Shown: positions 14,703-45,633 of the stretch, piece after piece
How the letters are laid out: every line of letters starts with the position of its first letter
How positions within the stretch are numbered: the stretch's first letter is position 1
Source: a virus
Reading direction: 5' to 3' (one strand)
Virus record (IMG/VR): IMGVR_UViG_3300034198_009148
Span: 1-51,883 of that record
DNA length: 51,883 nt
Translations under genes and position numbers: made by a program
Notes under the pieces: generated by a model
The model's input: the letters and a program-made list of their open reading frames with translations, nothing else
What the model was told of the DNA's origin: nothing
The model's database searches: none

Positions 14703-14705
14703 GGC

Positions 14706-14717
14706 GTGTATGTATTT
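14706..14717 (+). promoter_or_regulatory. Repeated promoter-like motif, copy 1
   Basis: GTGTATGTATTT in the 68-bp divergent gap between portal and annealing-protein genes, 65 bp before the latter's ATG. The same core occurs in four other intergenic gaps in the same orientation, with TGG a few bases downstream in most copies. Candidate phage-specific promoter. Confidence 0.5.
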
Positions 14718-14770
14718 GTTTGTGGTTCTAAACTAGTTAAATCCTTCACATTCCACAACATAGGACGTTT

Positions 14771-19801: not shown

Positions 19802-19868
19802 CTATACTATACTATACTATCTATTATACTATACTATACTAATATCTATACTATACTATACTATACTA
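19802..19868. repeat. TATAC pentamer array
   Basis: Three blocks of tandem TATAC units separated by short interruptions (TCTAT, AATAT). The array is almost pure A/T plus one C per unit. It could act as a DNA unwinding element, a cluster of TATACT -10-like hexamers, or a binding array for an unknown protein. Copy number may be inexact because such tracts assemble poorly. Confidence 0.8.
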
Positions 19869-19988: not shown

Positions 19989-20177
19989 TCGACTATTTTC
20001 CCAGCGTAGTGACACCTCGATTGTTAGCCCATGAACATCGTCTATACTCCCTTGAACACACAATCTATCACACACCCTTGCGTGTACATAAGGCGTTATC
20101 ACGAACCTTTTACTATGTTCCTGGCAGGTAGGCGGTAAACCAAACGTTCAGATCCTACCTTATCCCTTTTCCATTGC

Positions 20178-20189
20178 TTGTATGTATTT
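20178..20189 (+). promoter_or_regulatory. Repeated promoter-like motif, copy 2
   Basis: TTGTATGTATTT followed by GTTTCTGG, nearly identical to the copy at 14706 over 20 positions. It lies 56 bp before the ATG of the 48-residue gene. Confidence 0.5.
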
Positions 20190-20233
20190 GTTTCTGGTAG
20201 TGCTTTTACTACTAACCTCTTAGGAGTACTGCG

Positions 20234-20403: not shown

Positions 20404-20412
20404 CCTCAGTGC

Positions 20413-20424
20413 GTGTATGTATTA
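20413..20424 (+). promoter_or_regulatory. Repeated promoter-like motif, copy 3
   Basis: GTGTATGTATTA followed by GCTGACTGG, 56 bp before the next ATG and just after a terminator, where a fresh promoter is expected. Confidence 0.5.
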
Positions 20425-20468
20425 GCTGACTGGCACTGTTTTAACAACAATTTCCAAAGGTTTACATC

Positions 20469-20723: not shown

Positions 20724-20759
20724 CAATGCATACACGTAGTAACGCTTAGTCGTCATTAC

Positions 20760-20771
20760 GTGTATGTATTA
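20760..20771 (+). promoter_or_regulatory. Repeated promoter-like motif, copy 4
   Basis: GTGTATGTATTA followed by a T run and TGG, 74 bp before the ATG at 20834. Its first bases also form the 3' arm of an ACACGT/ACGTGT inverted repeat (from about 20732), so a terminator for the previous gene may overlap this promoter. Confidence 0.45.
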
Positions 20772-20833
20772 TTTTTTTGGTGTTTGATACACAAACATCA
20801 CCCATTTCCCCATTTCTTTCTTAGGAGTTCATT

Positions 20834-24191: not shown

Positions 24192-24212
24192 GTACGGTAT
24201 CCGTATGGGTAT

Positions 24213-24224
24213 GTGTATGTATTA
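24213..24224 (+). promoter_or_regulatory. Repeated promoter-like motif, copy 5
   Basis: GTGTATGTATTA in the 70-bp divergent gap between the probable small terminase and the coiled-coil gene, 49 bp before the latter's ATG. Downstream TGG is missing in this copy. Confidence 0.5.
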
Positions 24225-24261
24225 GGGTTTGCATTTGTTTCACAATTTACTGAGGATTTGT

Positions 24262-27313: not shown

Positions 27314-27690
27314 TCAGCCTTTGGCTTGCGACCACGCTTGACTTCAACAGAATCATTTGTCTCTTCGGAGATAGATGGTTCTGTTTTTTCTTCTACGACT
27401 GGCTTCGTTACAATCGTATGCTTGATAGGAGCGTGAGCAATTGGATCGTAATTCAATAGCCACTCAAGCTCAACCCATGCAAACTCATGGTAATCAGTTA
27501 CCACCAATGCACGTTGTACGCCTGACGATGCTGGATCAGTCAATGCGATAACCTCATATGGTTTGTTCAGTGAAAATGGGCCTGATGGATTACGAACAGA
27601 CTTGATCTTTTGCTCAAATGCTGATCGTGTTTGGGAAGGCTGGAGTTCAGGGTCTTTAAATGTGACCTTGATGTTATTCAGAGTCTGCAT
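27310..27690 (-). CDS. Small protein with AT-hook-like tail
   Basis: A 126-residue protein starting inside the last 17 bases of the giant gene, hence probably coupled to it. The N-terminal 80 residues are beta-rich and contain PYEVIALTDPASSGVQRALV. An acidic linker follows and the end is KRGRKPKAD, an AT-hook-like GRKP core that could bind the minor groove of AT-rich DNA. The giant protein has a similar basic end (RRRKPRRKKP). It may be a DNA-binding partner of the giant protein. No family recognised. Confidence 0.7.
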   Translation of the reverse strand: MQTLNNIKVTFKDPELQPSQTRSAFEQKIKSVRNPSGPFSLNKPYEVIALTDPASSGVQRALVVTDYHEFAWVELEWLLNYDPIAHAPIKHTIVTKPVVEEKTEPSISEETNDSVEVKRGRKPKAD

Positions 27691-30600
27691 TTGGTTTCTT
27701 TCTACGTGGTTTACGACGACGAGTTGATTTAGGTTTTTCTACTTCTTCACCTACTAAGTTACTAATAAAGTTCTTTGGTCCTTTGAGAACTTTGTTACCC
27801 TTTTCAATGGTGCTAATAACATCGCCAGGAGCTTGCAATGGGATACCAAGTGGTCCCAACAGATTAGCTACACGACGATCCCAGCGCATATCAGACGGCA
27901 TATTAGGTAGAATGCCTGCTTTGTGCATGGCATAGAGACCCAAAAGCGCTCCAGCGTCAAATGCAGGGGTAATACCAGCACCTCCAGGTACAATGTTGGC
28001 GAGATCTTTGAGATTATATTCGACAGCATTTGCCGTAGAAGCTTTGTTTAGATCGCGAGTAGCAAACAAGCTTACGCCTTCGACAAATGTTTTAACAGCA
28101 TTGCCTATAGGGTTCTCGCCACCAATGACCATTTCTACGCCTTGCTGTACCTCACGCTTAATCTCGTAAATGTCATCATCAGCCAAAGACTCTAACAATG
28201 AATTCAGCAAGAATCCAAGTCCTGTTACAGCTAGTGGTGTAAATGCCATTTTACCTGCTATGCTCAAACGTAAAGCTTGTGGACCATCTTCAGCAGACCA
28301 TGCTGTAAACGTACGCTGGGCAACCTGATCGCCAAGATCTAAGCCATACTTGCCCATCATTACATTAGCAAACTCTTGATCTTCACCTACAATTTTGTAC
28401 CATGAATCCCAAAACTTATACTCATTAATAGGATCGAGTGTAGTACGACGAGCAAACTTGCGGAAATACTGGCTAAAAAGATTGTAGGCACGACCAAATG
28501 GTGTTTGCAGGTGGTAAGCTTTTTCGTCGAACTTGCCTTGTAGTGTTTCAATGCCTTGTTCAACAAAACTTGAGATAGCAGCAGGGTTAGAACGAATATC
28601 TTTGCCTGCTTGCAAGCGCTCAAATGCTTTGGTTACCGTACTACCAGCACGCATAACACCCTTTTGTTCTGTTTCCCCAAGAGCATTAAATACACGCAAG
28701 CGTAGATTGTTAGAGCGAATAAGCGCACGGCTGCCAGTAACTAGCAATGGATCAAGGAATGAAAGTGTTTTGCCAGACAGCGCTAGTGCCTGATTAAGAC
28801 GATCAAGATTCATTGCTTGCAAATCATCAAGGCTTGCAATGTATTCCTCAATACCATCTTTATTAGTCTCGCTGAACGTAAGGTTCAATTGTCCTTGCCG
28901 GATTGTTGCCTTAACGTTCTTTGCATAACGCATATTCTTGTCAATAATTTGCTGGACCTGATCCATGTCGTTTGCAGTCAAATAACGACCAAGACCATCA
29001 ATGATCTTCTTTACACGTTTGCCTTCATTGAGCATTTCTACATACTGCAAGGTACTGCGATTTGTAGACTGTGTATTAGCTGGAGTAATAAGCTCAGCTG
29101 CTAAGCCAGCACCCTTTTGCAGACGCTGCTTGGCAGTTGATGCAGCAGGGGTACCTTCACGCATATAGCCGTCCATTTCCTTGCTACTCAAAAGCTTCAG
29201 TGTGCCTGTGACCTGGCTAGCAAAGTTGCGTCCCATCATCTTAATAGCTGCACCCCAAGTATTTGGCAGTGCCTCGCTATCAAACAACTGTGGAAATATC
29301 TGTGCTGCACGAAGAGCAAACCCCAAATAGTTGCCATACTTATTACGTACGTACTTACTTGTGCCTTTGTAAACAGCCCAACCTACACCAGCAGCAGCAC
29401 CACCTACGCCAATAACAGGAGCAGCAAGCACACTAGCAAGGATTGTCGCTGTCTCCTTACCCAAGCCATAACGCCACTGTGAAGCACCGCTACTGATAAT
29501 CTGTGCCGTCTTATCAAGAGCAGCTACCAATGAGTTTGGAATGTTCTCACGACCAATCTTACTATAGAAGTTGATGCTTGCTTTTTGATCATTGACCTTA
29601 TAGGTTTCCCGAATCTTTTCTCCAGTAAAACTTTGCAACGCTTCTGCTCTGACGCTTGATAGGAACTCACCAAGTTCACGTTCTTCACCAAAAATCTTAT
29701 AGATCTGCTTCTGTCGTGCATCGTTAGCTTTATTCGCCAGCCAACCATTGACAGAACCCTTTTGCACCTGTGTTATAGTTTCCAAATCAATGTAACTCAA
29801 GCTACCGTTCTCTTGATTGTAGACAACCATAACGTCTTTTGGTGCTGGCTTTTGGTTAAGGCCAAGCTTACGTTCTGATAGTTCCAGGTTAGATAGGTCG
29901 AGCTTGTGCTGCTCAGGTGTAATTGTACCTTGACGCAACATCGTATCAAGCAATTGCTTTTGCTTATCGAAACGAGCTTGTGCTTCTTTGACGTTCTTAG
30001 TAGCTACAATTTCAGGATTCAAACGAACGACACCAGCCAAACGACCTGTCAACGTCTTGATGTTGTTGTTGGAGTCAGCTGTATATGTGATAGCTACTGG
30101 CGTTGTTACTGGCAATCCCATTTCGTCCGATGATAGCCATGCACGACCTTCATTAGACACTTCCTTCATCTTAGCTCGCCAGCCACGTGTACTATGTACG
30201 TCAACGTTCTCTTTGTAGATCGTACCATCAGTGCTAAACAGTGACAACAAGTTGTTTTCTGCAACTGTGCTGTTCAATGTAGACTTACCCAATGCTTTGC
30301 GAATGTTGCGCTCAGTATTGTATGAGTTTGTAAACAGCGAGTTAATGTTGAGGAAGGTTGATTGCAATACGTCCTGGTTGCGTTGGAACAACAGGTCTTC
30401 ATTGTACGTATCAGGTGTACCAAAGACATACTTCATAATCTCGTAGTCACGAGTATCGTACATAGAAGGACGATGTTCATCACTACCTAACAGCTCTCGC
30501 TTAAAGAAGCTGCTTACCTTCGACAATTGTTTGTTCTTGCGGTCGGCTGAGTCACGTCGTGATTGCAAATAGGACATTACAAGCTTACCACGATCAAGTG

Positions 30601-33600
30601 GGTCAGCACTACCCATGGTAGGATACTGCTCAGCCAAACGCAATACATCAAAGTATTGGCTGTATGAACGATACAAATCGTCTAGCTCTTGCTTTGCCTC
30701 AGCACGTTGTTCGGCTGGAGCATTCTTGATCTTGTCAATAAACGCATCACGTTCGGTCAAAGATTCAGTCACAACTTGGCTGAACGTATCGTAGTTAACA
30801 AACTGCATTGCATTGATATTGTCTACAAGGCCAGACTTCAATCGTGCATCAGCTTCAATGCGTAGTTCATCAGCGATAGTCTTTGCTTGTTGCCACAAAG
30901 GAGCAAACTCAGTTGTTTCAATATCAGGTTTGGCTGACATAGGCGCAATGCCTGCTGCCAACTCTTCTTCGCTCAGTGGTACAACCTCATTAGGAGTATT
31001 CTCTTCGTACAGATTACGTACATATTCTTCCAATGAAGCTGCAATGTTACGTTGATATGTAGCATATCGTTGATTTTGAGCCTTTGCCGTTACTGCAATC
31101 TTAAGTGCATTGACTAGGTTCTGACGTGTGTACTGCTGTGGAATAAGTTCTGGTTGCTGTACACCGTTGAGAATCTCTTCTGCAATGCTATTAAGCTCAT
31201 TGTCTGGGATGTATCCATTGGAATCAGCATTGTAGATCTTATTGTTGATTCTAATACTGACCGATGGGTCATTCACACCATTGAAGACACTCGTTGCTTG
31301 CACGACAGCAGTTGATACGCGGCTTATTTCACGTACTGCTTCAAGGATACCAGGGTCTCCAATACGCTCAAAACGATCTTTTAGATTGTCACGCAAACCG
31401 CTAAGGTCAGCAGCCATCTTGTCCTTGATAGCGTTGATAGAGCGCTTGCGATAGCCATGACGTACATATGTCTCGCTTTCCATAGAGGCATATTTAGGCA
31501 TCATTTGCTGGTTGTATTGTGAGCCTAAAGTATTCTTTGTTACTGTCTCACTTACATTGCCTGCATCGTCTACGGTTACAGCGATTGTCTCAGACACTGG
31601 TGTAAACAATGAATGATTGCGCTTGTCTTTGGCGTAATGCTTAATGAAATCACCAGCTTCTTGTGAGGCAAGGATTTGGAAACGATCCCACCAAGTGCGT
31701 GGCACTAGACCCATAACCTTAGCTTGTTTGTCTGTGATCTTCATCGCATCTGTCAAAGCTTGAGTCAAATAAAAGCTCTTGCTTGCACGGATGATATTGT
31801 TACCACGAGTATCACCATTCTCCTCGACTTGTGTCATACTACCGTACTTACGGTAAAGACCCTCTTCGATAGTCCGTAACTGCTGTGGGTCGATAGCCGA
31901 CATCACAAAATCATACAACTCGTTAGCGTTAGCACTTTCCCCAAACTCAGAACGCAGGTACTCGCTAATTGTGCTATTGATTTCTTCTGTTTCCTTCCAT
32001 GACATATTTGCCAGTGGCTTACCAACAAACTTGTTTAGGCGATTGAGACGCCCAGCACGTTGGTTCTGTAACTTGTAACCTTCGATCTTAGCTTCTTCAC
32101 CGTTGTACAATCCAAAGCGTACACCAGGAATGTTATCGATGGAGTCCGAATCCTGCATGTTGTGCAATGCTTTAACATCAGAATAGTAAACAGCATCTTG
32201 ATACACGGACTGCAAAATATCTTCACCACTGCCAATGGTTACGTCACCACCTACTTCCTTTGCACCTTCATAGACGTCACGGAGTCCAGCATAGTAATGC
32301 TTATCCAATGACTGCATAGGATCATAGCCTTCAATCTCTTTGCCTGTAGGTTCTTTGCGTTTGACATCTTCAAACACAGAAACCTTTTGGTTCATAGCAG
32401 CAAGTAGAATATCAGGGCTTGATGGCTGCATAAACGCAGCATACTTACCCAACATCTTAGTGCGTTGCCGTTCATTCATATTGCGATCAATACGCAAAGC
32501 AGCACCGCTATCAAGAATGCTAGGATCTACCTTGTTTGGCATTGTGCGCTTAGTAGCTTCGCCCCAGTTCAGCAATACAACACGCTTGCCTTCTAGTGTC
32601 TGCTGGGCAATAGCGTCCTTGATTTCTTTGGTTACGCCAGCATCAGACCTACCACCACGGTTAACCATAATAACATTAGGTTCAGGCGTATAACCTTGCG
32701 ACCAACCATCTTGGAAGTTTTGGAAGTCTGCATGGGTTAACAAGAATACTGAGTTTGGATTTTCTTTGCCAAGCTTTGTAAGCTCATCGCGCATATTCCG
32801 CAATGGCACTTCGCGCTTGTCCATAACGGCTGGCATGATCAAGTGTGGAGGGAATAGCTGGTCTGCTGTCAGCCCAGTTTCTTCCATCAACTGCTTGATA
32901 CCTTCGGAGTAATCGCCCTTGGTGTAGATCTCTTCGATGCCATATTCAGCGTGTGGCGTTTGCAAAACAACAGACTCATCTGTGATATTCCATCGTACAC
33001 CATCAGCACCTGGTATCTCAATAGTAGTCTTTGACTGACCATAGGCACGCTGTAACATCTCAGTCAATACAAGCTGATTTGTTACGTGGTTGGGATTATC
33101 AGGTGTGCTAGTAAAAATAGCATTAGAGCCTGTCGCAATTGGATCAGCTGACAGGTTAGATACAAAATCAAAACGTGCATCAACTGCTGACAATCCTTTA
33201 AAGCTTGCAGCTATCTTATTGAGTTGGGCTAACGTTTCATCTTTAACATCAGTATTTGACCTAAGTGTATGCAACACTGAACGGATATTGTTGAATGTGT
33301 TTCTAGCTAGGTTAGTGTACGTAGCTAACGATGTTGGGATTGCTTGTAGTACTTTACCTTGTGTACGCTTAAACTTTGTTTTTTCTGGTAAGCGATCAGA
33401 TATTACCTGACCAGTTGTATCAATCAGTTCAGGTGTTATACCTTCAGGTAATTGTTCATACTGTTTGATAGTTTCATTAATGCCAGCACCATACACGGTA
33501 GTATCGTTGTACTTAGCTGCTGCATACTCGTTTTGATTGATGTACCTAGGCAAAGCACCAACCACACTGTCTGCTGATTTTTGCGGTACCATACTTTTGT

Positions 33601-36600
33601 AAGCACGGTAAAATTCTTCCATCAACAACGGAACAACTGTACCTGTTTCTTTATACCGAGCAACAGCATCCACAAAGTCTTGGTAGTTAGCTGACTCTGG
33701 ACTCATGTTAATCTGTATGTCCATTACACGGCTACCAAAAAACACATCGCGTGGATGATATGGCAGTCCAGCCCATGTATCATACTGTGCTTGTTTGGTA
33801 TATGCATCAGCGACGCGCCATTGGTCAGGCGATCCACCCAATGTAAAACGCATACGACTAGTTTCTACAACAGGATTAGTGCGACTAGCATTCATGTCTT
33901 CGATATAACCCCAAGCTTCGTACCATGTATTAAGCTGAGCAATACCGTGATCAATCTTATCCTGGCCTATACTGTTAGCTTCTTGTGTCTTATTAAAATT
34001 GTTGGTTGTCTGTTGACGTTGATCAACTGGGATTTTAGGGAATGGCATTCCCAGCAAATTTTTACCAAGCTCTTGCTTTTTGGCTGGATCACCCTTATGC
34101 GAACCTTGCTTAGCCAGTTCATCCCAAAGATCAAGATACTTGCCACCCCAATCTGGGTTTTCAAACAGGATACCAAAATCATCACCATCAAAGTCACGAC
34201 CAATTTCTTGAGTAAGAAACTCGTGGTTAACCATAATGCCAGTATTTTTACGGCTATCAGCACCTACAAGAACACGTGCTGAATAGCTATCCAATCCATC
34301 TGGTGGGTTAAGCTTTGTTACAACCTTAGATCCCATTAGTAAGTACGGTATGTCTTTGCCTTGTGCTCGTTGCTTTTGTACGTGACGATTGTATGCGTCA
34401 ATATCGTTAACCGAAAGGATTACACCTTGGTCATATGCCTTGAGCTTGCCATCAGGTATATGCTTTGCAACTACTTCATTGGCAACAAAGTCATCATGCT
34501 CACGTACCTTGTTATTGATAAACTCAAACGCGTCTTCATCAGACAGTTCAAGTTTAGCTGCTTCTTCTTCAGCTGCAATACGTGCCCACATACGAGAAAT
34601 GTCTGTGCCATCTTTAACGTGGTTATCGGCTGGTACATATAAGTTCAAACGGAACAGCTTGCCAAGACTTTTAGCTTTGCGTGATGCGTCGAACTCATTT
34701 GTGATGACGCGCTGACGTAGTGTGTTTTCTCCATGGATAACATTGCCATAGATAGCGTCAAGCAGATGAAGATTGCGTACAGCAACAATGTTGTCATCGA
34801 GCAAGCTATTCTCAATACCACGTACAACAGCACGCTTGATTTCAGGCGTAGCAAATAGATCGCTACCTGGCTCAGACTCTTGGGCTTTAGCTAAAAGACT
34901 CTTTACATACTTGTACAAATCTTTATTACGGATTGTACCATTGTCATGGTTGTAAACCTTTTTGACTTCATTAATAGCATCTGCAATCTCTTTGTCAGTG
35001 GAGCCTACCATTTCAAGTCGGCTCATAACAACATCTTGTGCTAACGGTGCAGTGGCAAGCAGAAGTTTATCAGCTTTGATCGTACGCCCAAATTTCTCAG
35101 CTATACGTGAATGCAAACCACGGACTGTTTTACGCAATACACCACCTTGATCACCATAGACATATGGACTACGGTCAAACGAAACGCTAACGCCACGGAA
35201 GCTATTCTCATCAGGGGCTGAAGCTACGTGGTTAAAGCCAATAGCGTTATCGCCAACAAGATCATACTCACGGATAGCACCTGGTACATCAACATTGCCA
35301 TTAGCATGTAGGGCAATAGATTCTTCTGGGGTTAGTGCCTTGTATTGACCGTTTTCTTCCGCACCTAACAACGTACCATTGTGGTCATAAACATACCGTG
35401 TAGGCATTGATGCCCCTTCACGTAGTACATCCTGACGTTGGAAGTTTTTACCCTTGCTCTTGATGGCAGACTGCATAGCGACCATGCTAATGCCACGGTC
35501 ACGCAGATTCTGGAAAAATGTATCAACAAGTGGGTTGCCTGTATCGTATTGCTCAGACAATGCCGACTTCCAGATCCAGTCACCACCGTATCCAAACTTT
35601 AGACCACCAGTAGTGTTAGCTGATTTGTTATACGCTTCAGCCAAGAAATCATGTGTAGCCTTATTGATAAGCAGCGTACCACCATCAAAATGATCCGATG
35701 GCTTACGAAGCTCATTAAGCTTTGGTTGCGTTTCTTCACCACGGCGTTGTTCCCATTGCCAATTACGTTCGCCAACACCAGCAGTTGATGTTAACCGCTT
35801 GCGTGGTACGGGCTTCCAAACGCCTGGACCTACTTCTTCATAACCATTATTGGTTACATAATCAGCAATGTCACGTTCGCCTACGTTGTATTCACGCTTT
35901 CTATTAGGTGCATCATCGGTGATGATTGTAGCACCAGCTTGTACCGCCTTGCTAATTTCATCAAAGTTTGGTCGTATGCGGTTGGCGCGGTTACCTTCAG
36001 CAGATACAAACACAACGTCGCTAGCTTCATACACACCTGTATTAGCTAGTTCACCGAAGTCTTTGGCATACTGCTCGGTATTACTACGAGGCGATCCACG
36101 ACCAATGTACTTGGTTGCCATGTCCGCTTTAGCTTGATCTTTAGGAAGATAACGTTGTTCTCCCATGCGATCAGGTACGCCAGTTAGCTTTACATTTGCT
36201 GGTGCTTTTGGCGCTACCTCCGCTTCATCAACCTCTTGCTTAAACAAATCTTGTGCGCTCAAAGCAGCCCAAATCTCTGGGTTAGCTTCTGCCCAAGCGT
36301 CAGTAAGAATAAACTGCTTAAGCTTGATAGAACCATCATCGCCTAGAATAATACCCTTCTGTTTCCATGTAGCTCGTACAGTTTCACGATTTTCAGGTGC
36401 CACTTTGTTTAGATCCAATGGATCAATAAGCTTACCACGAGACTGCAGAATAGTCTCAAGGGTATCGACATCACGATAATGGTTGTAAGACGCCTGAATA
36501 GCGACGTTGTAATACTTGTTATTATTCTTGATTGGCTTATCTGATCCTGGCTTAGTGGCGATCGTATTTTGATTGCCATAATCTGTTAGCTTATGATAGA

Positions 36601-39600
36601 ACTCAGTGAGTGCAGACACAAGTGGTTCACGACCGTCACCATCAAGCTTATACCGCACCTGTGGCTTAACACCAGCTTCGTTAGCTTCATAGTATTTAGC
36701 AAGCTTGGTAATGACTTCATTAGCTTGCGTAGCCAACGTAGGCGCATCTGACATAGCTGCTTGGAACCAGTTAGCAATACCAATTGGATTACCTTGCTTT
36801 GTAGCATCATAAATGTCATTAGACAATCCTTTGAGAATACTTGTCTTAGGATCAGCAAGATCAAAGTATTCTCCCTTGTTTGCCATGTCTACAAGCTTCC
36901 ACAAATCAAAGGCTGACAATACACGAGGTACTGCTGCATTGCCACCTGGCTTACCCCATGTCTGCTCGCTGTCAAGATAGTCAACGAGGTTGATTGTTTC
37001 TACCTTTTGGGTAAGAAGCTTGAGTGCGTTAGGGTGGAGCTTGCCTGTAAACAAACTGCTCAAGTCAAGCCACATATTGCCTTCGGCTGTGCCTGGCAAA
37101 AAGAACCATCCTGGCTTTACATCATTGAGAAAGACATCAGATACGTTGGCGCTATTCTTGATAAAGCCATGATTTTCCAACATCTTACTGTCAGTAACCA
37201 CACCAACTTTAACATTAGTTAGTTGGTCAATCAATACATCAATACCCTTGTCTTTATACACACGGTAAGGGTTGCCAGATGATGATGTCTTGAGTCCTTC
37301 TGCAATGTTCTTAAGACGGCGAAACATTGGTATTGGATTCTGAATAGCCGTTATAAGCTTACGACCTGTGGCTGCACTTACGCCATCCTTAGACTCGATA
37401 GCATTTAGATATACCTTGCCATTAACATCCTTGCTCAATTCCAAAGGAGTTACTGGCAGCATGTTATGGTTGTTGAAGATATAAGCACGTACAGCTTCGT
37501 TGGCTTTTTCCCGGAACGAGTTGATCATTGCTTCCCGTTCGGTGTTATCAGCCAGCACTTCACTGTCTGCTTCAACAGGACCAAACAGGTCGTCAATGCG
37601 CTTGTCAATACCCTTGTTTATCGTGTCCATGATAAACTCAGGCTTTTCAAAGTTGGCGTTAATCCACTTTTGCAAACGCTTGACACTCTTCATGCCAAGT
37701 ACTGTAGACAAATCACGCATTGAGATCGTATCACGACGCGCAATCTCTGAAGCTGGCAGATCTGTTTCGAAATCTACACGCTCTTTGGTCAATGCCTTCA
37801 ATCTGCTTACAATGCCTGTATCAGCTACAAGCTTCTTACTTTCTTGCAACAAAATCTCAGACTTACGTAGCGGTGTAAGATTATCCCAGTCAGCATACTT
37901 TTCAGTAATGCCATCAGTAATGAACTTATACCCTACTTCATCTTCAATACCATAACGCCTCAGATTATCGATAAACCGTATGCTATTAGTACGTGCTTGA
38001 TTCTTATCGACCGATTCAGAAGCTAGGTTAATTGCTTTTGCTAAGTCCTTGAATAGACCAAGGTTACTGTCAGGGTCAACCAATGTTTCATGATCATCCA
38101 GAATAAAATCAATGCCCAAACCATTTGTCAACTGATCAAATAGCTCAGCGTTTTGTGGCTGCTGATCGCCCATAGCTTGAGCGAACGTATCATTGATTGC
38201 ACCAAATGGTTGTGGGTCAGCAGTCTTTACCACCTCCATGCGTGGGAATGCTCGCAATACATCTTGCACAGATTCAAATACGTCTGTGTTTGTCATTGCA
38301 TCGCGGTTAAATGCTCCTTTGATCGTATCGATAGTGCGACGTCCAAAGCCTTGCGACTCTTGCATAATAACATCAGCAACACCATTGACATTATCAACGA
38401 TACCAGCAATAAACTCTTCAGGACTTTGCATCATGTACAAAGCCTTTTCCCAGTTTTCTTCCTTGCTCATCCACTTTTGGAACAATGAGCTCTCTTCAAT
38501 CTTCTGCTTGAGCAATAGAATCTGATCGCGGAATGCTGGGTCTTTGCGTAGTGTCTCTACAGTAGCTGCATGGATACCTTCGTGGAGCAACGCATTGCGT
38601 TCCCCTTCCGTACCCCGCAAACTTTCGCTAATGTAAATTGTTCCTGTGCCAGTATCATAAAATGTGTTTGGCCCTGGATGGTAAATGACATCTGTATCTG
38701 GAGCGTTACGATGGATAAGGTTAAGAGCTTCGCGCTGAATATCGGAGAACCCATCAGCGAATGCTTCTTGACTTGTCATTTCCGACAGCTTGACTGGCGT
38801 AGCTTCTCCTGCTCGTACATCCAAAACAGCTCGGTCAGCATCAAAACGTTCACGCAAAAGCTCTTCATAGCCCTTGGTGTATTGTTCGTTTAGCTCTTCA
38901 TCTGTTGGTGGGTCGATGTTCTCTATCGTTTCTCCAGTCTCACGCGCAACCTGGGCATCCTCCGGAGTAGCCATAGTTGCCTCAGAATCCGTCGCAATGT
39001 CTTCAACCACCTTAGCATTGGCTTCGTCAGCAATAGGGCTTGTATTGCCCTGCATATCACGCGCAAAGCGTTTAGCATCTGCAATGGCTTCTTCTGTTTC
39101 ACGCGCACGAATAAAGCTTTGGATGTCACGTGCATCAAGTGGACGGTTAAAACCACGGATGGTCTTAGCCAAATGACCACTAGCACCTAGACCCATTACT
39201 GCATCAAGTACAAACGCTACGCCATCATATTCCTGACCTGTAAGATTCGCTACAATAGCACCCTGTACTGGGTTACCAAATGTGTTCCCCATGGCATAGG
39301 CTAGTTCTTTCTGTACACGAGCGGCATCATAGGACTTGGTAAAGATTTCCATGCCTTTTTGTTCCCCATACTTTGTTATGAGGTTATCCATATACGCGGC
39401 ACGTGTACTGCTATTTTCTAGCACTCCTTGTACAGACTTCCACTTTGTTACGAGTGGCATGAATACACGCTGCGTAATCAGATTACCTACAACTGGGAAC
39501 AATGCGCCACTAATAGCTGATTGCTCAAGCTCTTCAGGGTTAGCATTAGGGAACGTTTCAAGCAGGTGAGCCATACTCATCGTGGCTGCCATTTCTGTAG

Positions 39601-41680
39601 CTGCTTGTACGTTAGGAATAACATTAGGTCCAAGGCCATGCAACGTCTGACCCAACTGTTGCATATACTTGCTACCCAAAATTGTTTGTCCTACCTTGCT
39701 GGTACGAAGAAACGAACTGGCTTTCATTACTGTGCCAGACGAAATCTTAAATGGTCCAGCATACATAGAACCAATGAGCTGGGTGACTGCTGGTATTACT
39801 TGTTCGATAAATGTATCGGTACCTACAGTTGTTTGTGCTTTGGCTGCTGCGTCAAGGTTCGGTTTGCTCTTAGCTCGTTCATTATCAGCAATAGCCTGTG
39901 GCAAAAGCTGACGAAGTTCACTTACATTAGGCACCGATACTGGGTCATTTGTTGCATAGGCTGGATCAATTGATTCTCGTCCAGTACCAAGATCAACAAT
40001 AAACCGCCATAACATGTCTTCTTGTTCTAGCTGTGAATAGTCTGATTGTGGGCCTTTAATACCACTTATCATACGTGCAGTGCGAGCTTCATCTGCATCA
40101 GCCAAACGTTCAGGCAACTTACTGATCCAACCTAACGCACCTCGGAATAAGCCCGTTACGCCACCAGCAGTTGTGCGAGCTGCTACAGCGCCTGTCTCGC
40201 TGGAAAACAACTCCTTTGGCAATTTCTTACCATAGAAACGTTTAGCTCCGTTTAGCTGTTCAAGCTGCTGGTAACGCTGCTTAAACGCATCATAGACACG
40301 TTTAACATTTGGGCTTTTTACTCGCGACAATACGTAGTCGTCTACTGCTCCAGACCACGATGTTAATGGACGCCATGAGTCAACGTCCACTGACTGTGCA
40401 ATAACATCAGCAATACCATCATCTACCGACTGTGACTTCATGTACTTAAGCAGGTCAAAGGCCAAACCTTGTGCAGCATCAAGACCTACCTTGTCATCAC
40501 CTGTCAAATACTTGTCAGTAAGAAGAGCTGTTGTAAACTTGCTGAGAAACTCATTGTCAAGTTGACGGTATGTTTGGGAAATATCCCCAATTTCATAGTC
40601 ACCTGTAAATGTTTCCTCACCATCTTTATCATCCATATACGCTATTGGCTTAATAGGCAATTGCGTAAGAGGCGACAATTCACTAACAAACTCAGCTGAC
40701 TTAGCTTCTTGTTCTGCAACTTTATTAAGTGCTGCTGTATCCCCCAGCATCGTGCTAGGAACCATCACAGAGCTTACCTGCATACTACCTTCAGGCATAC
40801 CGTCACTGCCAAGCTTTACGCCCTTGTACTGAAATGGTACAGCTACATACTCAGGACGCTTATCCGCCATCTGATCGTCACGCTGCTCTAGCTTAAACTC
40901 AGGGGTCCGCTTAAGATCAGCACGTGTAAACGCATACTTAGGTTCTTCAGGCTTGCGCTGTTCGAGACTTGCTGGCATTCCACCTGTTTCTGGACGACCA
41001 GTATTTTGTGGTACACCTTGAGGTCCCAGTACTCGTTTGATAGGGGTAGGGGTCAGTTGGGTCTTAACCCAATCACTATTTATTTCGTTGGCTTTGGTTT
41101 CTTGTTGAGCTTTTTGTGTACGTGCCTTTGTTACGTTATCCTTAACACCGTAATTCTTACGCATTAAATCAAGAGCATCTTCTGCGCCACGACGTTCATT
41201 AGCCATTTTAGCTAGATCATATAGATCAGCCTCATCCATATTAGGCAGCTTAAGACCTTGCTCTTTAATAACTTCGGCTACAGTCTTTTCGTCGTATCCA
41301 GCTAGATTCTTGCTACGTGCATAAGCGTTCAGTTTTTCGGTAGCGCCATTAAGAGTAAGCTCTTGCATACGCATATCAACGATACCATTGCGGGCCATTG
41401 ATGCACGGATGCCAGCATCCTTATCTGGAATTGTCGCACTTTTAGCAGCAGCTGAATATCGTTTCCAATCTTCGTGCTGTTGCTTTTTAGCTGGATCATT
41501 TTCAAAGGGTGATTCTTTGAATTGTACGGTTGGCTTTTCCATTGGCACGTTAACTGTGCCTGGTATTTGATCAAACGGAGAAGAGGAAGGCGCTGGTGTT
41601 GCGCTTCCCCCTGTTGTTGTACCTGGAATATTGCCAAACGTAAAATCGTTTTGAGGCTGCTTGTTACGGTTTTTAGCCAT
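27674..41680 (-). CDS. Giant polyvalent virion protein with two-barrel RNA polymerase and zincin motifs
   Basis: A single intact frame of 4,668 residues, 27% of the genome. Start ATG overlaps the upstream TAA (TAATG). N terminus (about 1-350) is Pro/Gln-rich and disordered-looking. Hydrophobic or amphipathic stretches lie at about 640-860. HEGIH at 1033-1037 with EEFIAGI at 1088 fits a zinc peptidase. Residues about 1859-1958 form a Rossmann-like domain (IGRGSPRSNT start; YNVGERDIADY; GVWKP). DGGTLLI (Asp1999), Lys2038 in GGDWIWKSAL and Lys2074 in SAIKSKG match the first catalytic barrel of QDE-1/YonO-type RNA polymerases; KLNPP (Lys2456) and DFDGD (2496-2500) match the second. A Rossmann-like stretch lies near 2977-3085. 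Membrane-like segments lie at 4076-4107 and 4470-4497; the tail is basic. It follows two ejection-type genes, so packaging and ejection are likely. Polymerase identity is inferred from motifs and spacing. Confidence 0.8.
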   Translation of the reverse strand: MAKNRNKQPQNDFTFGNIPGTTTGGSATPAPSSSPFDQIPGTVNVPMEKPTVQFKESPFENDPAKKQQHEDWKRYSAAAKSATIPDKDAGIRASMARNGIVDMRMQELTLNGATEKLNAYARSKNLAGYDEKTVAEVIKEQGLKLPNMDEADLYDLAKMANERRGAEDALDLMRKNYGVKDNVTKARTQKAQQETKANEINSDWVKTQLTPTPIKRVLGPQGVPQNTGRPETGGMPASLEQRKPEEPKYAFTRADLKRTPEFKLEQRDDQMADKRPEYVAVPFQYKGVKLGSDGMPEGSMQVSSVMVPSTMLGDTAALNKVAEQEAKSAEFVSELSPLTQLPIKPIAYMDDKDGEETFTGDYEIGDISQTYRQLDNEFLSKFTTALLTDKYLTGDDKVGLDAAQGLAFDLLKYMKSQSVDDGIADVIAQSVDVDSWRPLTSWSGAVDDYVLSRVKSPNVKRVYDAFKQRYQQLEQLNGAKRFYGKKLPKELFSSETGAVAARTTAGGVTGLFRGALGWISKLPERLADADEARTARMISGIKGPQSDYSQLEQEDMLWRFIVDLGTGRESIDPAYATNDPVSVPNVSELRQLLPQAIADNERAKSKPNLDAAAKAQTTVGTDTFIEQVIPAVTQLIGSMYAGPFKISSGTVMKASSFLRTSKVGQTILGSKYMQQLGQTLHGLGPNVIPNVQAATEMAATMSMAHLLETFPNANPEELEQSAISGALFPVVGNLITQRVFMPLVTKWKSVQGVLENSSTRAAYMDNLITKYGEQKGMEIFTKSYDAARVQKELAYAMGNTFGNPVQGAIVANLTGQEYDGVAFVLDAVMGLGASGHLAKTIRGFNRPLDARDIQSFIRARETEEAIADAKRFARDMQGNTSPIADEANAKVVEDIATDSEATMATPEDAQVARETGETIENIDPPTDEELNEQYTKGYEELLRERFDADRAVLDVRAGEATPVKLSEMTSQEAFADGFSDIQREALNLIHRNAPDTDVIYHPGPNTFYDTGTGTIYISESLRGTEGERNALLHEGIHAATVETLRKDPAFRDQILLLKQKIEESSLFQKWMSKEENWEKALYMMQSPEEFIAGIVDNVNGVADVIMQESQGFGRRTIDTIKGAFNRDAMTNTDVFESVQDVLRAFPRMEVVKTADPQPFGAINDTFAQAMGDQQPQNAELFDQLTNGLGIDFILDDHETLVDPDSNLGLFKDLAKAINLASESVDKNQARTNSIRFIDNLRRYGIEDEVGYKFITDGITEKYADWDNLTPLRKSEILLQESKKLVADTGIVSRLKALTKERVDFETDLPASEIARRDTISMRDLSTVLGMKSVKRLQKWINANFEKPEFIMDTINKGIDKRIDDLFGPVEADSEVLADNTEREAMINSFREKANEAVRAYIFNNHNMLPVTPLELSKDVNGKVYLNAIESKDGVSAATGRKLITAIQNPIPMFRRLKNIAEGLKTSSSGNPYRVYKDKGIDVLIDQLTNVKVGVVTDSKMLENHGFIKNSANVSDVFLNDVKPGWFFLPGTAEGNMWLDLSSLFTGKLHPNALKLLTQKVETINLVDYLDSEQTWGKPGGNAAVPRVLSAFDLWKLVDMANKGEYFDLADPKTSILKGLSNDIYDATKQGNPIGIANWFQAAMSDAPTLATQANEVITKLAKYYEANEAGVKPQVRYKLDGDGREPLVSALTEFYHKLTDYGNQNTIATKPGSDKPIKNNNKYYNVAIQASYNHYRDVDTLETILQSRGKLIDPLDLNKVAPENRETVRATWKQKGIILGDDGSIKLKQFILTDAWAEANPEIWAALSAQDLFKQEVDEAEVAPKAPANVKLTGVPDRMGEQRYLPKDQAKADMATKYIGRGSPRSNTEQYAKDFGELANTGVYEASDVVFVSAEGNRANRIRPNFDEISKAVQAGATIITDDAPNRKREYNVGERDIADYVTNNGYEEVGPGVWKPVPRKRLTSTAGVGERNWQWEQRRGEETQPKLNELRKPSDHFDGGTLLINKATHDFLAEAYNKSANTTGGLKFGYGGDWIWKSALSEQYDTGNPLVDTFFQNLRDRGISMVAMQSAIKSKGKNFQRQDVLREGASMPTRYVYDHNGTLLGAEENGQYKALTPEESIALHANGNVDVPGAIREYDLVGDNAIGFNHVASAPDENSFRGVSVSFDRSPYVYGDQGGVLRKTVRGLHSRIAEKFGRTIKADKLLLATAPLAQDVVMSRLEMVGSTDKEIADAINEVKKVYNHDNGTIRNKDLYKYVKSLLAKAQESEPGSDLFATPEIKRAVVRGIENSLLDDNIVAVRNLHLLDAIYGNVIHGENTLRQRVITNEFDASRKAKSLGKLFRLNLYVPADNHVKDGTDISRMWARIAAEEEAAKLELSDEDAFEFINNKVREHDDFVANEVVAKHIPDGKLKAYDQGVILSVNDIDAYNRHVQKQRAQGKDIPYLLMGSKVVTKLNPPDGLDSYSARVLVGADSRKNTGIMVNHEFLTQEIGRDFDGDDFGILFENPDWGGKYLDLWDELAKQGSHKGDPAKKQELGKNLLGMPFPKIPVDQRQQTTNNFNKTQEANSIGQDKIDHGIAQLNTWYEAWGYIEDMNASRTNPVVETSRMRFTLGGSPDQWRVADAYTKQAQYDTWAGLPYHPRDVFFGSRVMDIQINMSPESANYQDFVDAVARYKETGTVVPLLMEEFYRAYKSMVPQKSADSVVGALPRYINQNEYAAAKYNDTTVYGAGINETIKQYEQLPEGITPELIDTTGQVISDRLPEKTKFKRTQGKVLQAIPTSLATYTNLARNTFNNIRSVLHTLRSNTDVKDETLAQLNKIAASFKGLSAVDARFDFVSNLSADPIATGSNAIFTSTPDNPNHVTNQLVLTEMLQRAYGQSKTTIEIPGADGVRWNITDESVVLQTPHAEYGIEEIYTKGDYSEGIKQLMEETGLTADQLFPPHLIMPAVMDKREVPLRNMRDELTKLGKENPNSVFLLTHADFQNFQDGWSQGYTPEPNVIMVNRGGRSDAGVTKEIKDAIAQQTLEGKRVVLLNWGEATKRTMPNKVDPSILDSGAALRIDRNMNERQRTKMLGKYAAFMQPSSPDILLAAMNQKVSVFEDVKRKEPTGKEIEGYDPMQSLDKHYYAGLRDVYEGAKEVGGDVTIGSGEDILQSVYQDAVYYSDVKALHNMQDSDSIDNIPGVRFGLYNGEEAKIEGYKLQNQRAGRLNRLNKFVGKPLANMSWKETEEINSTISEYLRSEFGESANANELYDFVMSAIDPQQLRTIEEGLYRKYGSMTQVEENGDTRGNNIIRASKSFYLTQALTDAMKITDKQAKVMGLVPRTWWDRFQILASQEAGDFIKHYAKDKRNHSLFTPVSETIAVTVDDAGNVSETVTKNTLGSQYNQQMMPKYASMESETYVRHGYRKRSINAIKDKMAADLSGLRDNLKDRFERIGDPGILEAVREISRVSTAVVQATSVFNGVNDPSVSIRINNKIYNADSNGYIPDNELNSIAEEILNGVQQPELIPQQYTRQNLVNALKIAVTAKAQNQRYATYQRNIAASLEEYVRNLYEENTPNEVVPLSEEELAAGIAPMSAKPDIETTEFAPLWQQAKTIADELRIEADARLKSGLVDNINAMQFVNYDTFSQVVTESLTERDAFIDKIKNAPAEQRAEAKQELDDLYRSYSQYFDVLRLAEQYPTMGSADPLDRGKLVMSYLQSRRDSADRKNKQLSKVSSFFKRELLGSDEHRPSMYDTRDYEIMKYVFGTPDTYNEDLLFQRNQDVLQSTFLNINSLFTNSYNTERNIRKALGKSTLNSTVAENNLLSLFSTDGTIYKENVDVHSTRGWRAKMKEVSNEGRAWLSSDEMGLPVTTPVAITYTADSNNNIKTLTGRLAGVVRLNPEIVATKNVKEAQARFDKQKQLLDTMLRQGTITPEQHKLDLSNLELSERKLGLNQKPAPKDVMVVYNQENGSLSYIDLETITQVQKGSVNGWLANKANDARQKQIYKIFGEERELGEFLSSVRAEALQSFTGEKIRETYKVNDQKASINFYSKIGRENIPNSLVAALDKTAQIISSGASQWRYGLGKETATILASVLAAPVIGVGGAAAGVGWAVYKGTSKYVRNKYGNYLGFALRAAQIFPQLFDSEALPNTWGAAIKMMGRNFASQVTGTLKLLSSKEMDGYMREGTPAASTAKQRLQKGAGLAAELITPANTQSTNRSTLQYVEMLNEGKRVKKIIDGLGRYLTANDMDQVQQIIDKNMRYAKNVKATIRQGQLNLTFSETNKDGIEEYIASLDDLQAMNLDRLNQALALSGKTLSFLDPLLVTGSRALIRSNNLRLRVFNALGETEQKGVMRAGSTVTKAFERLQAGKDIRSNPAAISSFVEQGIETLQGKFDEKAYHLQTPFGRAYNLFSQYFRKFARRTTLDPINEYKFWDSWYKIVGEDQEFANVMMGKYGLDLGDQVAQRTFTAWSAEDGPQALRLSIAGKMAFTPLAVTGLGFLLNSLLESLADDDIYEIKREVQQGVEMVIGGENPIGNAVKTFVEGVSLFATRDLNKASTANAVEYNLKDLANIVPGGAGITPAFDAGALLGLYAMHKAGILPNMPSDMRWDRRVANLLGPLGIPLQAPGDVISTIEKGNKVLKGPKNFISNLVGEEVEKPKSTRRRKPRRKKPNADSE

Positions 41681-43428
41681 TACTTATTACCACCAGTGAT
41701 GTTATGCCCAGTAAATCGTTGCAGTTCCGCCAGCTCCATACCTGTTGGTGCTTCAACCTTCCAGCCGTGAGTCTGAATTACATTACCCTTGTCATCTTTA
41801 ATGACTGATTTTTCTAGTCCAGCTTGATACGTAAGAGTAATAGCACCCGTTGGTGTTTGTACTTGTACCATTTGTGGTTGCCCACCTGATTGCTGTAGAA
41901 TCTTAACGTTGTAGTTACCACGTCCAAGTTTGCTGGCTTGATCGGCTTTCAGTTTCAATACATTGACAAGCCCATTACCTTCAGTAAACCGCAAATCGCC
42001 TGTTGATCGGAATGCCAAATTTGACACAGGGCCAGTCAGCTTAACACCACGCTCATCATAACTAATTTGTGTTGTCGCACCAGCTTCTGTTGATGGCAAA
42101 TTAGCTTGGATGATACTTGCAGGTGATGGAGATGGTGCATTAAGAGTTGCGCCACCAACACGGATGTCTGTCTTCATTTCCTCGGATTGCATTACACCCA
42201 GCTTATTCTTTGATCCTTCAACCTTGGTGCGACGATCTGATTGCTTTTCAAGCGTAGTAGCAACACCAGACTTTGTAGCTGCTTCTTCCCAACGCTTCAA
42301 ATCAGCAACACGCTGTGTCAGCAATCCACTAAATGTTTCTTGCATAGGTGCGCCAGTATTATACCCACGGGTCATCATGATTTGATTACCGTAGTTTTCA
42401 AGTGCAGCCAATCCAGCTAACTTAGGTATTGAACGTTTGATTTCGTCATACTGCGCTGACTGTACCATCGTTGTCTTTTCGCTAACAGTCGGCATCTGTG
42501 TTTCAAAACCACCACGCTCCATTTCAACATCGATTTTGCCTGCACCTTTCCACTTTTGTCCTGCCCCTTCTGTCATACTGATTTTTGTATCAGGAGCTGG
42601 TGCAGGTGTTTCTATTTTGGTTGGGGTAGCTACAGGCTTAGCTGATCTAATTTTGTTTGCCAACATAGCACCAAGACTTGTAGGTGTTGGTGGTAACTCA
42701 CTTGCTTTTGAACCAATGCTTGCTGCCCCTGTACCCGATGCGTTACTACTATGCAATACCATTGGGGTTGGTGCATTTGGATCAATAGTAGGCATAGGCA
42801 ACGTACGTGTTGCTACTCCTTGCCCAGCTGGAAAAGGTAAAAGTCGTTGAGCTGCTCGCTGTTCTAGTGCATTGCCATTAGGATTAAGAACAGCACCATC
42901 GCCATATTTTTGTGATGGCAACTGTGGCTGTGGCATAGTGCGTGGTGTAGCTGCTTTTGCACCAATGTTTCCTGCAAGTGCTGATGCTACAGCAAAGTTA
43001 CCACGCTGCAATGCGTCCATGTCTTCAGGCATAGCTTCAGCAGCTGCTCCTTGCGCTTGTGCAACTTGGGCAGCAAACTGTTCAGCTTGTCCTGGAACCA
43101 TTTCTTCTCGGACTTGTGTAAAGCCACCGCGACTTTTATCATCACGTGGATCAAGACCACCAACAGCTCGATAAAAAGCTTCTCGTGCAGCGCTCTGGTC
43201 CATAGGACTATCTTCGCCAGCAAACTGAAAACCTTCATCGGTTACTGTAATCTCTGTTTTAGGCAACAATCCAGCAGCCATCTTAGCTTCAAGATCCTGC
43301 TTTTGCGCTACCTTCATATTTTGTTTTGCACGACGGTAAGCTACGTTCTCAACTAGGTTGAGAAACAAAGCTTCCATATTGTCAGAAGCTGACGGTGGTG
43401 CTGGCTGGGTAACAAATTGCTGTGGCAT
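41680..43428 (-). CDS. Probable internal virion (ejection) protein
   Basis: A 582-residue protein coupled by TAATG overlaps to both neighbours. It is Ala/Gln/Pro-rich with long low-complexity stretches (AAQVAQAQGAAAEAMPEDMD) and a more ordered beta-rich C-terminal 200 residues (YNVKILQQSGGQPQMVQVQ). No signal peptide. Large Ala/Gln-rich proteins between a short glycine-rich protein and a giant protein recall the ejection-protein trios of T7 and P22, which leave the head before DNA and form a conduit. The call is contextual. Confidence 0.65.
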   Translation of the reverse strand: MPQQFVTQPAPPSASDNMEALFLNLVENVAYRRAKQNMKVAQKQDLEAKMAAGLLPKTEITVTDEGFQFAGEDSPMDQSAAREAFYRAVGGLDPRDDKSRGGFTQVREEMVPGQAEQFAAQVAQAQGAAAEAMPEDMDALQRGNFAVASALAGNIGAKAATPRTMPQPQLPSQKYGDGAVLNPNGNALEQRAAQRLLPFPAGQGVATRTLPMPTIDPNAPTPMVLHSSNASGTGAASIGSKASELPPTPTSLGAMLANKIRSAKPVATPTKIETPAPAPDTKISMTEGAGQKWKGAGKIDVEMERGGFETQMPTVSEKTTMVQSAQYDEIKRSIPKLAGLAALENYGNQIMMTRGYNTGAPMQETFSGLLTQRVADLKRWEEAATKSGVATTLEKQSDRRTKVEGSKNKLGVMQSEEMKTDIRVGGATLNAPSPSPASIIQANLPSTEAGATTQISYDERGVKLTGPVSNLAFRSTGDLRFTEGNGLVNVLKLKADQASKLGRGNYNVKILQQSGGQPQMVQVQTPTGAITLTYQAGLEKSVIKDDKGNVIQTHGWKVEAPTGMELAELQRFTGHNITGGNK

Positions 43429-44153
43429 TATCGGTTCCCAAGAAAGTTAATAACTGGAACGCCTGACTGACCACCAAACAAATTCATAAATGGGCTACGC
43501 TTTTGCTTAGCTACTTGTTCGATAAAAGCCTTTTGTTGTATCTCTGCTGCTTGTTGCGGAGTGTTTTCAGCACTTTGTAGTGGTACGCTTCTTGGAGCTG
43601 CTGTGTTAGGTGCTGCTTGGTTCATAAGGCTATAGATGTTAGTGGCTGTGTTAACACCCCCAAGAATGCCTTGCAAGATGTTGCCAAAAGGATTTGCTTT
43701 TTGCTCGTTGACATACGAGACTTGATTAGACAAATCCGCAATAGAGCGTCCTAGGCTTTCTGATTGCTGGATCTTTTGTTGTTGTGCTTGCTGTGCTTGC
43801 CCATAGGTATCAGCCATAGCTTGCGAGTATGGTGCAGATGCAGCCATAGCTGCTTGACTAGCCTTAATACCTTGACCTGTTGCGTTAGCAAAGTCACCAG
43901 ATCCACCAGCAACGGCGTTGAGAGCTGCCCCTTGAGCAGCCCCCATACCCCGTGAAATCTGTTGTTGTTGCGCCCGTGCTGTTGCCATTGGGCTAAGTGC
44001 TTGGTTAGCTTCGTCTGCACGAAGAAGACGTCCATACGCATCTGTGTTGTATTGTTCTTCAATGCGTTGACGTTGTGTTTTACCTTGACCCATGAATTGT
44101 TGCAGAATACCAAGTCCTGCACCAACACCAGCCATAATCAATGGAACAGCCAT
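43428..44153 (-). CDS. Probable internal virion protein (T7 gp14 / P22 gp7-like)
   Basis: A 241-residue protein with a hydrophobic, Gly-rich N terminus (PLIMAGVGAGLGILQQFMG) and a long Ala/Gln/Ser-rich helical middle (AQQQQISRGMGAAQGAALNA). This composition is typical of the smallest ejection protein of short-tailed phages, which inserts into the outer membrane. It is coupled to the next gene by TAATG, and together with it and the giant protein it would form the ejected set. Confidence 0.7.
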   Translation of the reverse strand: MAVPLIMAGVGAGLGILQQFMGQGKTQRQRIEEQYNTDAYGRLLRADEANQALSPMATARAQQQQISRGMGAAQGAALNAVAGGSGDFANATGQGIKASQAAMAASAPYSQAMADTYGQAQQAQQQKIQQSESLGRSIADLSNQVSYVNEQKANPFGNILQGILGGVNTATNIYSLMNQAAPNTAAPRSVPLQSAENTPQQAAEIQQKAFIEQVAKQKRSPFMNLFGGQSGVPVINFLGNR

Positions 44154-44416: not shown

Positions 44417-44716
44417 TCACTTTTTAGGGAACTTGAACGTTGTAATGGATTGGTACAACATTTGCTCAAGGGCTGCCACAAGGTTCTCTTGTACCCCCCT
44501 ACCCATTGTGTAGAAAATGGCGTGAGCCCATTCATGGAGGAAGGCTTGTAGCTGAAGCTTTTCGCTTTGGGGTACATCGTTAATATGGGTAGCCACCCTA
44601 ATAACGCAGCTGTTATAGTTGCAGTCCCCGTGCATATCCTTAAGCTTTACACGCTTGACACGCCAGGTATTACCACCTAGCTTAAAGGAGCTTGGTATCG
44701 TCGTAAGGTCTTTCAC
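44417..44716 (-). CDS. Small HExxH metallopeptidase-like protein
   Basis: A 99-residue protein with LHEWAHAIFYTMG, giving His61, Glu62 and His65 of a zincin motif, on a helix as expected. The C-terminal helix (QENLVAALEQMLYQ) could supply the third ligand (Glu). Two cysteines (DCNYNSC) lie in the N-terminal half. Small stand-alone zincins in phages have no assigned substrate here; roles in virion processing or in host protein cleavage are possible. Its start overlaps the preceding stop by four bases. Confidence 0.7.
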   Translation of the reverse strand: MKDLTTIPSSFKLGGNTWRVKRVKLKDMHGDCNYNSCVIRVATHINDVPQSEKLQLQAFLHEWAHAIFYTMGRGVQENLVAALEQMLYQSITTFKFPKK

Positions 44717-45633
44717 GTATATACCTTACCAGATTCAATGAGGTAATTGGTTGCTTCAAAATTGCCGTCAGAATCCCCTTCGGCAAAGAAAAAGCCTTGG
44801 TTGTACGTGTTATAGCGGTTCCACTCAGGAGTACGTCCACAAAGGCATCCAATGGCGTAAGCTGCATTTGTTTTGCGTTGTAGGTCGTGCTCAGTCCATG
44901 TCTGGCGGATATGGTGGTGACCAAAGGCAATAGACTTCTTAGCATAGGATAGCTTGTTAGCAGCTACGTACTTACCCCCACGCTTAATCTCATGACCATG
45001 GATAATGGTAAGCTTACCCCACTCAATACCCATTCCGTTGTCATGATAGTCAATACCACGGCTTTCAAGGTTAAGCAATCCTGGGACGGTAAATACACCA
45101 TCGAGGTTGGCAAAGCCATTGTTACGTGCAAAGCGAGATACCCATTCGTCATGATTTCCAGCCACGTAGTGGATCTTTACGCCTGGCAAGTACTGTGCAA
45201 TAGCATCGAGGGTCTCATTAGCCCATTCGATCTCCTTGCGGTACAAATACGTACGGCTATCTTTACCATGTCTTGTCAGATTGGTATTATCAAGGAAATC
45301 ACCATTGATTACCAATACGTCAATGTTCAGGGTCTTAAGCTTTTTAAGGGCTGCACCTGTGGCTATTGTATCGCATACTGGGACATGGAGGTCATTAATA
45401 ATGCCAATACGGTTAGCCTCAATAATGGTAGGGCTAGCACTTTCGTCATGCATTGTAGGCAACGCAATGTCGTCTACATCCTCAAGTTCAAGGATTTGTG
45501 AAAGGCGTTTAGGCTGGAACTTATCAGCTAGCTTTTGGCTGATATTAGCGAGCTTAGAAGCATTTTGGTTATGCCTAAATTCTTGAAGCATTTGCGCTTC
45601 ATCGGGACTAAGTCGGAACTGTTTGTTTTGCAT
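44713..45633 (-). CDS. Calcineurin-like metallophosphoesterase
   Basis: A 306-residue protein with the complete motif set of the family: NDLH (Asp81, His83), NGDFLDN (Asp112), AGNHDE (Asn160, His161), IHGHE (His212, His214) and FGHHH (239-241). These bind a two-metal centre that hydrolyses phosphomono- or diesters. The N-terminal 70 residues are helical and precede the catalytic domain. A terminator lies upstream at 45638, so expression is probably lower than for the lysis genes. Substrate (nucleotide, DNA end, or signalling nucleotide) cannot be told from the sequence. Confidence 0.85.
   Translation of the reverse strand: MQNKQFRLSPDEAQMLQEFRHNQNASKLANISQKLADKFQPKRLSQILELEDVDDIALPTMHDESASPTIIEANRIGIINDLHVPVCDTIATGAALKKLKTLNIDVLVINGDFLDNTNLTRHGKDSRTYLYRKEIEWANETLDAIAQYLPGVKIHYVAGNHDEWVSRFARNNGFANLDGVFTVPGLLNLESRGIDYHDNGMGIEWGKLTIIHGHEIKRGGKYVAANKLSYAKKSIAFGHHHIRQTWTEHDLQRKTNAAYAIGCLCGRTPEWNRYNTYNQGFFFAEGDSDGNFEATNYLIESGKVYT

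Follow-up and report, generated by a model that had tools for sequence, protein, structure and literature searches.

The giant gene and its product

The DNA analysed (the window) is a viral stretch of 51,883 bases, which probably represents a complete genome, as it carries a terminal direct repeat of 87 bases. The last gene of a minus-strand run of structural genes (27674..41680) encodes a virion-type protein of 4,668 aa, which contains no cysteine and features a probable two-barrel RNA polymerase (RNAP) core. It is preceded on the same strand by genes encoding cysteine-free proteins of 582 aa (41680..43428) and 241 aa (43428..44153). A metallophosphoesterase gene (phrog_221; 44713-45633, minus strand) lies among the tail genes, as in the crAss-like phage phi14:2.

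All the parts of the giant described here are encoded by the minus strand. The candidate lysine barrel (DPBB-B), delimited by family conservation, spans residues 1999-2190 (35111..35686), and includes K2038 (codon 35567-35569) and K2074 (codon 35459-35461). The aspartate barrel (DPBB-A), residues 2411-2520 (34121..34450), was assigned on profile matches to the phage proteins gp64, gp96 and gp66, and on Foldseek matches to RNAP beta'-type chains. It features G2450, P2459, G2473, and the putative metal-binding residues D2496, D2498 and D2500 of the active-site motif DFDGD (residues 2496-2500, 34181..34195; DxD[G/K]D in relatives). The corresponding DNA pattern occurs once in the window, against 0.01 occurrences expected. 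A helical segment located after DPBB-A (residues 2566-2600, 33881..33985) may be a bridge helix, by its position and the conserved residues I2580 and A2589.

A preliminary description of this DNA had located the motifs DGGTLLI (residue 1999), GGDWIWK (2032, including K2038), SAIKSKG (2071, including K2074), KLNPP (2456) and DFDGD (2496), and all are found at these positions. It had also proposed that a basic residue and a proline precede DFDGD as in cellular enzymes. The proline (P2459) is invariant in the family; the basic residue of the conserved R-x-P motif maps instead to column 2457 (R or K in 7/9 distinct sequences), where the window has Leu, its Lys (K2456) standing one position earlier. 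The long distance between the barrels, viewed at that time as a caution, is a family-wide trait: K2038 and D2496 are separated by 458 residues in the window, and the corresponding residues by 434 in the relative L103.

Other parts of the protein reside outside of the core. HEGIH (residues 1033-1037, 38570..38584), N-terminal to the RNAP, is a putative zinc metallopeptidase motif; HExxH is found before the core in 8/9 distinct giants, and is absent from G021. The strongest hydrophobic segment (residues 4080-4103, 29372..29443) may be a membrane-inserting part. An accessory domain of ~150 aa, identified by sequence matches directly before the lysine barrel (35717..36178), is missing in the close relative L002, and has kin in the Vibrio phages Kuja, SUMAE and VPALA. 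L002 has an insertion of its own, of roughly 150 aa, between the barrels, near window residue 2230. In two relatives (L108:5055-7775, L106:1387-3906) a phrog_9995 domain directly follows the core; this looks like a mobile accessory domain, because its matches in Pseudomonas jumbo phages sit in short annotated proteins.

Relatives and conserved residues

Nine relatives of the window have been collected. L002 is close (93% identity over the core), and was found by a core search. The other eight (G012, G015, G016, G019, G020, G021, G023, G024) are distant, with 16-20% identity to the window, and were reached via portal, capsid and terminase searches. Scans of genome contigs with profiles of two family alignments found no relative. 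Six of the distant contigs measure 54-57 kb; those of G020 and G024 are shorter, at 35 and 30 kb respectively. The giant ORF is present in all nine relatives and varies in size from 4,012 to 5,332 aa; in G012 and G023 it spans the contig ends, which were joined at the overlap. Small and medium neighbour genes precede the giant gene wherever the contigs allow.

Despite identities as low as 16-20%, residues K2038, P2459, D2496, D2498 and D2500 are invariant across the family alignment. K2074 (kept in 9/10 aligned rows) and D1999 are nearly so, and their order relative to the aspartate barrel is the expected one. The gap of L002 at D1999 is due to the segment having been cut there, and the residue is present in L002. 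Each of nine giants has a single copy of the motif D-x-D-[G/K]-D, always at one position of the alignment, against ~0.2-0.3 copies per giant expected by composition. The fourth position is Gly in the window, its close relative, G015, G016 and G019, and Lys (DxDKD) in G012, G020, G021, G023 and G024.

Similarity to known RNA polymerases

When the family profile was searched (hmmsearch) against 177,635 PDB sequences, the sole match was 8f72_A, at its DxDGD barrel (E 0.42 and 0.32). This entry is gp64 of Thermus phage P23-45, a non-virion RNAP (nvRNAP) of the two-barrel type. The E-values are weak taken alone, and the match draws its weight from being the only one and from being in register. In hhalign comparisons the aspartate barrel aligned in register with gp64 (91%), P23-45 gp96 (84%) and crAss gp66 (91%), the controls (reversed templates, capsid, terminase) reaching at most 0.3%. 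The single sequences of gp64, gp96 and gp66 score 38.9-47.2, against a maximum of 20.5 for 150 shuffled sequences.

The lysine barrel behaves differently, as hhalign found no match between it and the gp64, gp96 and crAss profiles (probability at most 0.4%). This fits the statement in PMC10770324 that two-barrel families have little in common beyond the DxDxD region. With the single giant sequence as query, Pfam, PHROGs, PDB and phage records yielded nothing convincing on the core, and one match, to the insert domain only. A search with PF00940 for a T7-type RNAP gave no match, and its control failed as well.

Structure models

A model of 771 aa of the window protein, built from nine sequences, has a pLDDT of 47.9. 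Its 50 best PDB matches in Foldseek are RNAP chains only, none of them individually significant (E-values above 0.1). The model of L103 is better (pLDDT 62.3, pTM 0.58). RNAPs account for each of its 50 top-ranking PDB matches, the best having E 2.7e-4, but only 8 matches have E <= 0.001, and TM-scores are low throughout. The alignment to the crAss virion RNAP (vRNAP) 6vr4 covers 499 columns (prob 0.84); the viral models that rank high include crAss-like proteins, phi14:2 and giant-virus RNAP subunits. Both catalytic-candidate lysines fall in stretches with pLDDT below 50.

Structure prediction and structural search had been proposed as a check of the polymerase assignment. The L103 model indicates an overall fold like that of known RNAPs, the window model being too weak alone and the lysine region uncertain. 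The idea of a two-barrel core is supported. The identity of the aspartate barrel is well established, by family invariance, profile matches to three RNAP families and the Foldseek results on models. The second barrel is likely, on the strength of invariant and nearly invariant residues and their order, and stands apart from the first in lacking an independent sequence match and in low model confidence.

Phage type and proposed ejection proteins

The terminase (phrog_38) and the portal protein (phrog_156 and phrog_1216) fall in PHROGs shared with Escherichia phage N4. The capsid protein falls in phrog_1328, shared with SU10, in agreement with the SU10-like capsid initially proposed. A similar gene order and a shared metallophosphoesterase had suggested Crassvirales, a placement rejected because portal and capsid of phi14:2 belong to other PHROGs; in the comparison with phi14:2, only phrog_221, the metallophosphoesterase family, is shared. 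Schitoviridae have a T7-like giant vRNAP homologous to N4 gp50, and hhalign of the giants against gp50 finds nothing. The neighbours likewise showed no sequence similarity to gp51 and gp52.

Further likeness to N4 (Schitoviridae) resides in gene arrangement and composition. Both phages feature three adjacent genes for cysteine-free proteins, in the order small, medium, giant, the 582- and 241-aa proteins holding the places of gp51 and gp52 and being the proposed second and third members of an ejection trio. In N4, gp51 and gp52 form the channel for polymerase release (PMC12633501). The giant of the window has 0 cysteines in 4,668 residues; about 25 are expected from the frequency in the other window proteins (~0.5%). 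Nine distinct giants contain 16 cysteines in ~42,000 residues, against ~290 expected at 0.7%. The ejected N4 trio (gp50, gp51, gp52) has zero cysteine, and so has P23-45 gp96. The giants of StenR_269 and ICP2 are also cysteine-free, and were excluded from the family because they do not contain DxDxD; lack of cysteine thus marks ejection rather than polymerase. The placement of the giant at the end of an ejection-protein cluster, suggested earlier, is in keeping with gene place and order as with the three cysteine-free proteins, and on these grounds the giant is best read as an ejected virion RNAP.

Candidate early promoters

The motif YGTGTATGTATTWK marks the plus strand of the window at 14705..14718, 52 nt before the Erf-like ORF 14771, and at 20177..20190, 20412..20425, 20759..20772 and 24212..24225. 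All five copies are putative early promoter elements. They are the plus-strand sites found allowing <=1 mismatch, against 0.24 expected, a count which is no independent test, as these very copies served to define the motif; they lie 36-61 bases before early ORFs. The sites recur in close relatives, and one extra copy is found in L098, outside the aligned blocks. YGTGTATGTATTWK is a candidate early promoter or operator. A repeated intergenic motif was sought in other family members and none was found, except for one weak candidate in G012. A tandem CTATA-type repeat is located at 19802-19865 of the window, in the gap that separates the helicase gene from the ORFs that follow.

Proposed function and alternative explanations

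We propose that the 4,668-residue protein is a two-barrel virion RNAP, ejected into the host where it transcribes early genes, and assign to this reading a probability of about 0.8. Residues ~1999-2190 would form the lysine barrel and residues ~2411-2520 the aspartate barrel, the two meeting as an active site on one chain, in which the three Asp residues of the latter would hold the catalytic metal. The protein would be made late, as the last of the three cysteine-free ejection proteins (241, 582 and 4,668 aa); it would be packaged into the head and fed through the short tail into the host. Once delivered, it would transcribe early genes of the plus strand, for which the repeated YGTGTATGTATTWK sites would probably serve as promoters. 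Parts outside of the core, such as the N-terminal metallopeptidase motif and the C-terminal hydrophobic segment, may serve envelope crossing.

A two-barrel RNAP could also be made early or middle in infection, act as a non-virion enzyme, and reside beside the structural genes by chance. P23-45 gp64 is an existing example of a non-virion two-barrel RNAP, as reported in PMC10770324, but measures 616 aa only. The giant gene, in contrast, ends the minus-strand structural run, next to the genes for the 241- and 582-aa proteins and in the N4 ejection order, and its product is cysteine-free as ejected proteins are; an enzyme that is not packaged is accordingly an improbable explanation, even if the best placed of the alternatives.

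Less probable still is that the giant is a former polymerase, in which the barrel fold survives with a structural or DNA-binding role in a giant ejection protein and catalysis has been lost. Replacement of DxDGD by DxDKD in five relatives would agree with such a loss, and the host RNAP could serve instead. However, the three Asp and K2038 have remained invariant and K2074 nearly so, while most of the rest of the protein has diverged to 16-20% identity. Moreover, crAss RNAPs feature Val or Ile at the fourth position of the motif (DFD[V/I]D), and one of these vRNAPs is proven active, which implies that this position is free in active enzymes.

Coincidental occurrence of DFDGD and of the lysines, in a giant that serves another function in the tail or in ejection, would agree with the single sequence having no significant Pfam match and no PDB match. 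It is very improbable, being contradicted by family invariance, by profiles of three RNAP families that align in register where the controls fail, and by Foldseek lists made of RNAPs throughout.

Comparison with known polymerases

The preferred reading, a packaged two-barrel RNAP, sets the window directly against N4. N4 gp50, whose injection serves to turn on the first viral genes, is a single-subunit RNAP of the T7 type, not of the two-barrel type; the giant of the window holds an equal place in a cysteine-free trio, but features another polymerase fold. We consider it reasonably likely that, in N4/SU10-like podoviruses, the slot of the giant ejected RNAP is filled by two unrelated folds, T7-type in N4 and two-barrel here, that a single virion architecture has seen polymerase injection within a giant cysteine-free protein arise, or be exchanged, at least twice, and that the window represents an undescribed phage family of ~52-57 kb. 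The contrast with N4 makes it testable which properties of the polymerase the ejection machinery demands, and which it does not. YonO, QDE-1 and RDR enzymes are two-barrel RNAPs with which the giant would share its catalytic logic on one chain (PMC5467207, PMC10770324); they are not virion proteins.

A packaged two-barrel polymerase had been presented as new in this phage type. As a kind, such proteins are known: crAss-like phages are established carriers of giant virion proteins with two-barrel RNAPs (PMC7886860), and P23-45 gp96 is a giant virion protein in which a two-barrel virion RNAP is fused to the tape measure (PMC10770324). What appears to be new is the phage type and the family. No paper on a two-barrel virion RNAP in an N4/SU10-like podovirus was found in a literature search of incomplete coverage, the supplementary survey of PMC10770324 being outside its scope. 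The known range of packaged two-barrel RNAPs, crAss-like phages and a Thermus siphovirus, would thus gain a family of N4/SU10-like podoviruses, and DxDKD in five members of this family bears on the variable active-site residues of two-barrel enzymes.

Like the giant of the window, P23-45 gp96 (PDB 8H2M/8H2N) is large (5,002 aa) and cysteine-free, combines a DFDGD two-barrel RNAP with a metallopeptidase, and has an aspartate barrel in register. The RNAP of gp96 is N-terminal (DFDGD at 779), and belongs to the tape measure protein of a phage with a long tail, whereas in the window it is central (DFDGD at 2496), follows the HExxH motif, and is encoded by a genome of podovirus type whose head genes resemble those of N4 and SU10.

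Gp66 of crAss-like phi14:2 (PDB 6VR4) and its relatives in Crassvirales and in Fpv20 are also single-chain two-barrel RNAPs marked by DxDxD and R-x-P, and large crAss-like virion proteins with such RNAPs reach ~4,500 aa in some phages. In contrast, portal and capsid PHROGs of phi14:2 differ from those of the window, crAss-like genomes measure ~88-105 kb against 52-57 kb, and tblastn of the giant against crAss-like phages found no similarity. Flavobacterium phage Fpv20 (L122), which is outside Crassvirales, carries a gp66-like RNAP core within a structural-protein gene of 13.3 kb.
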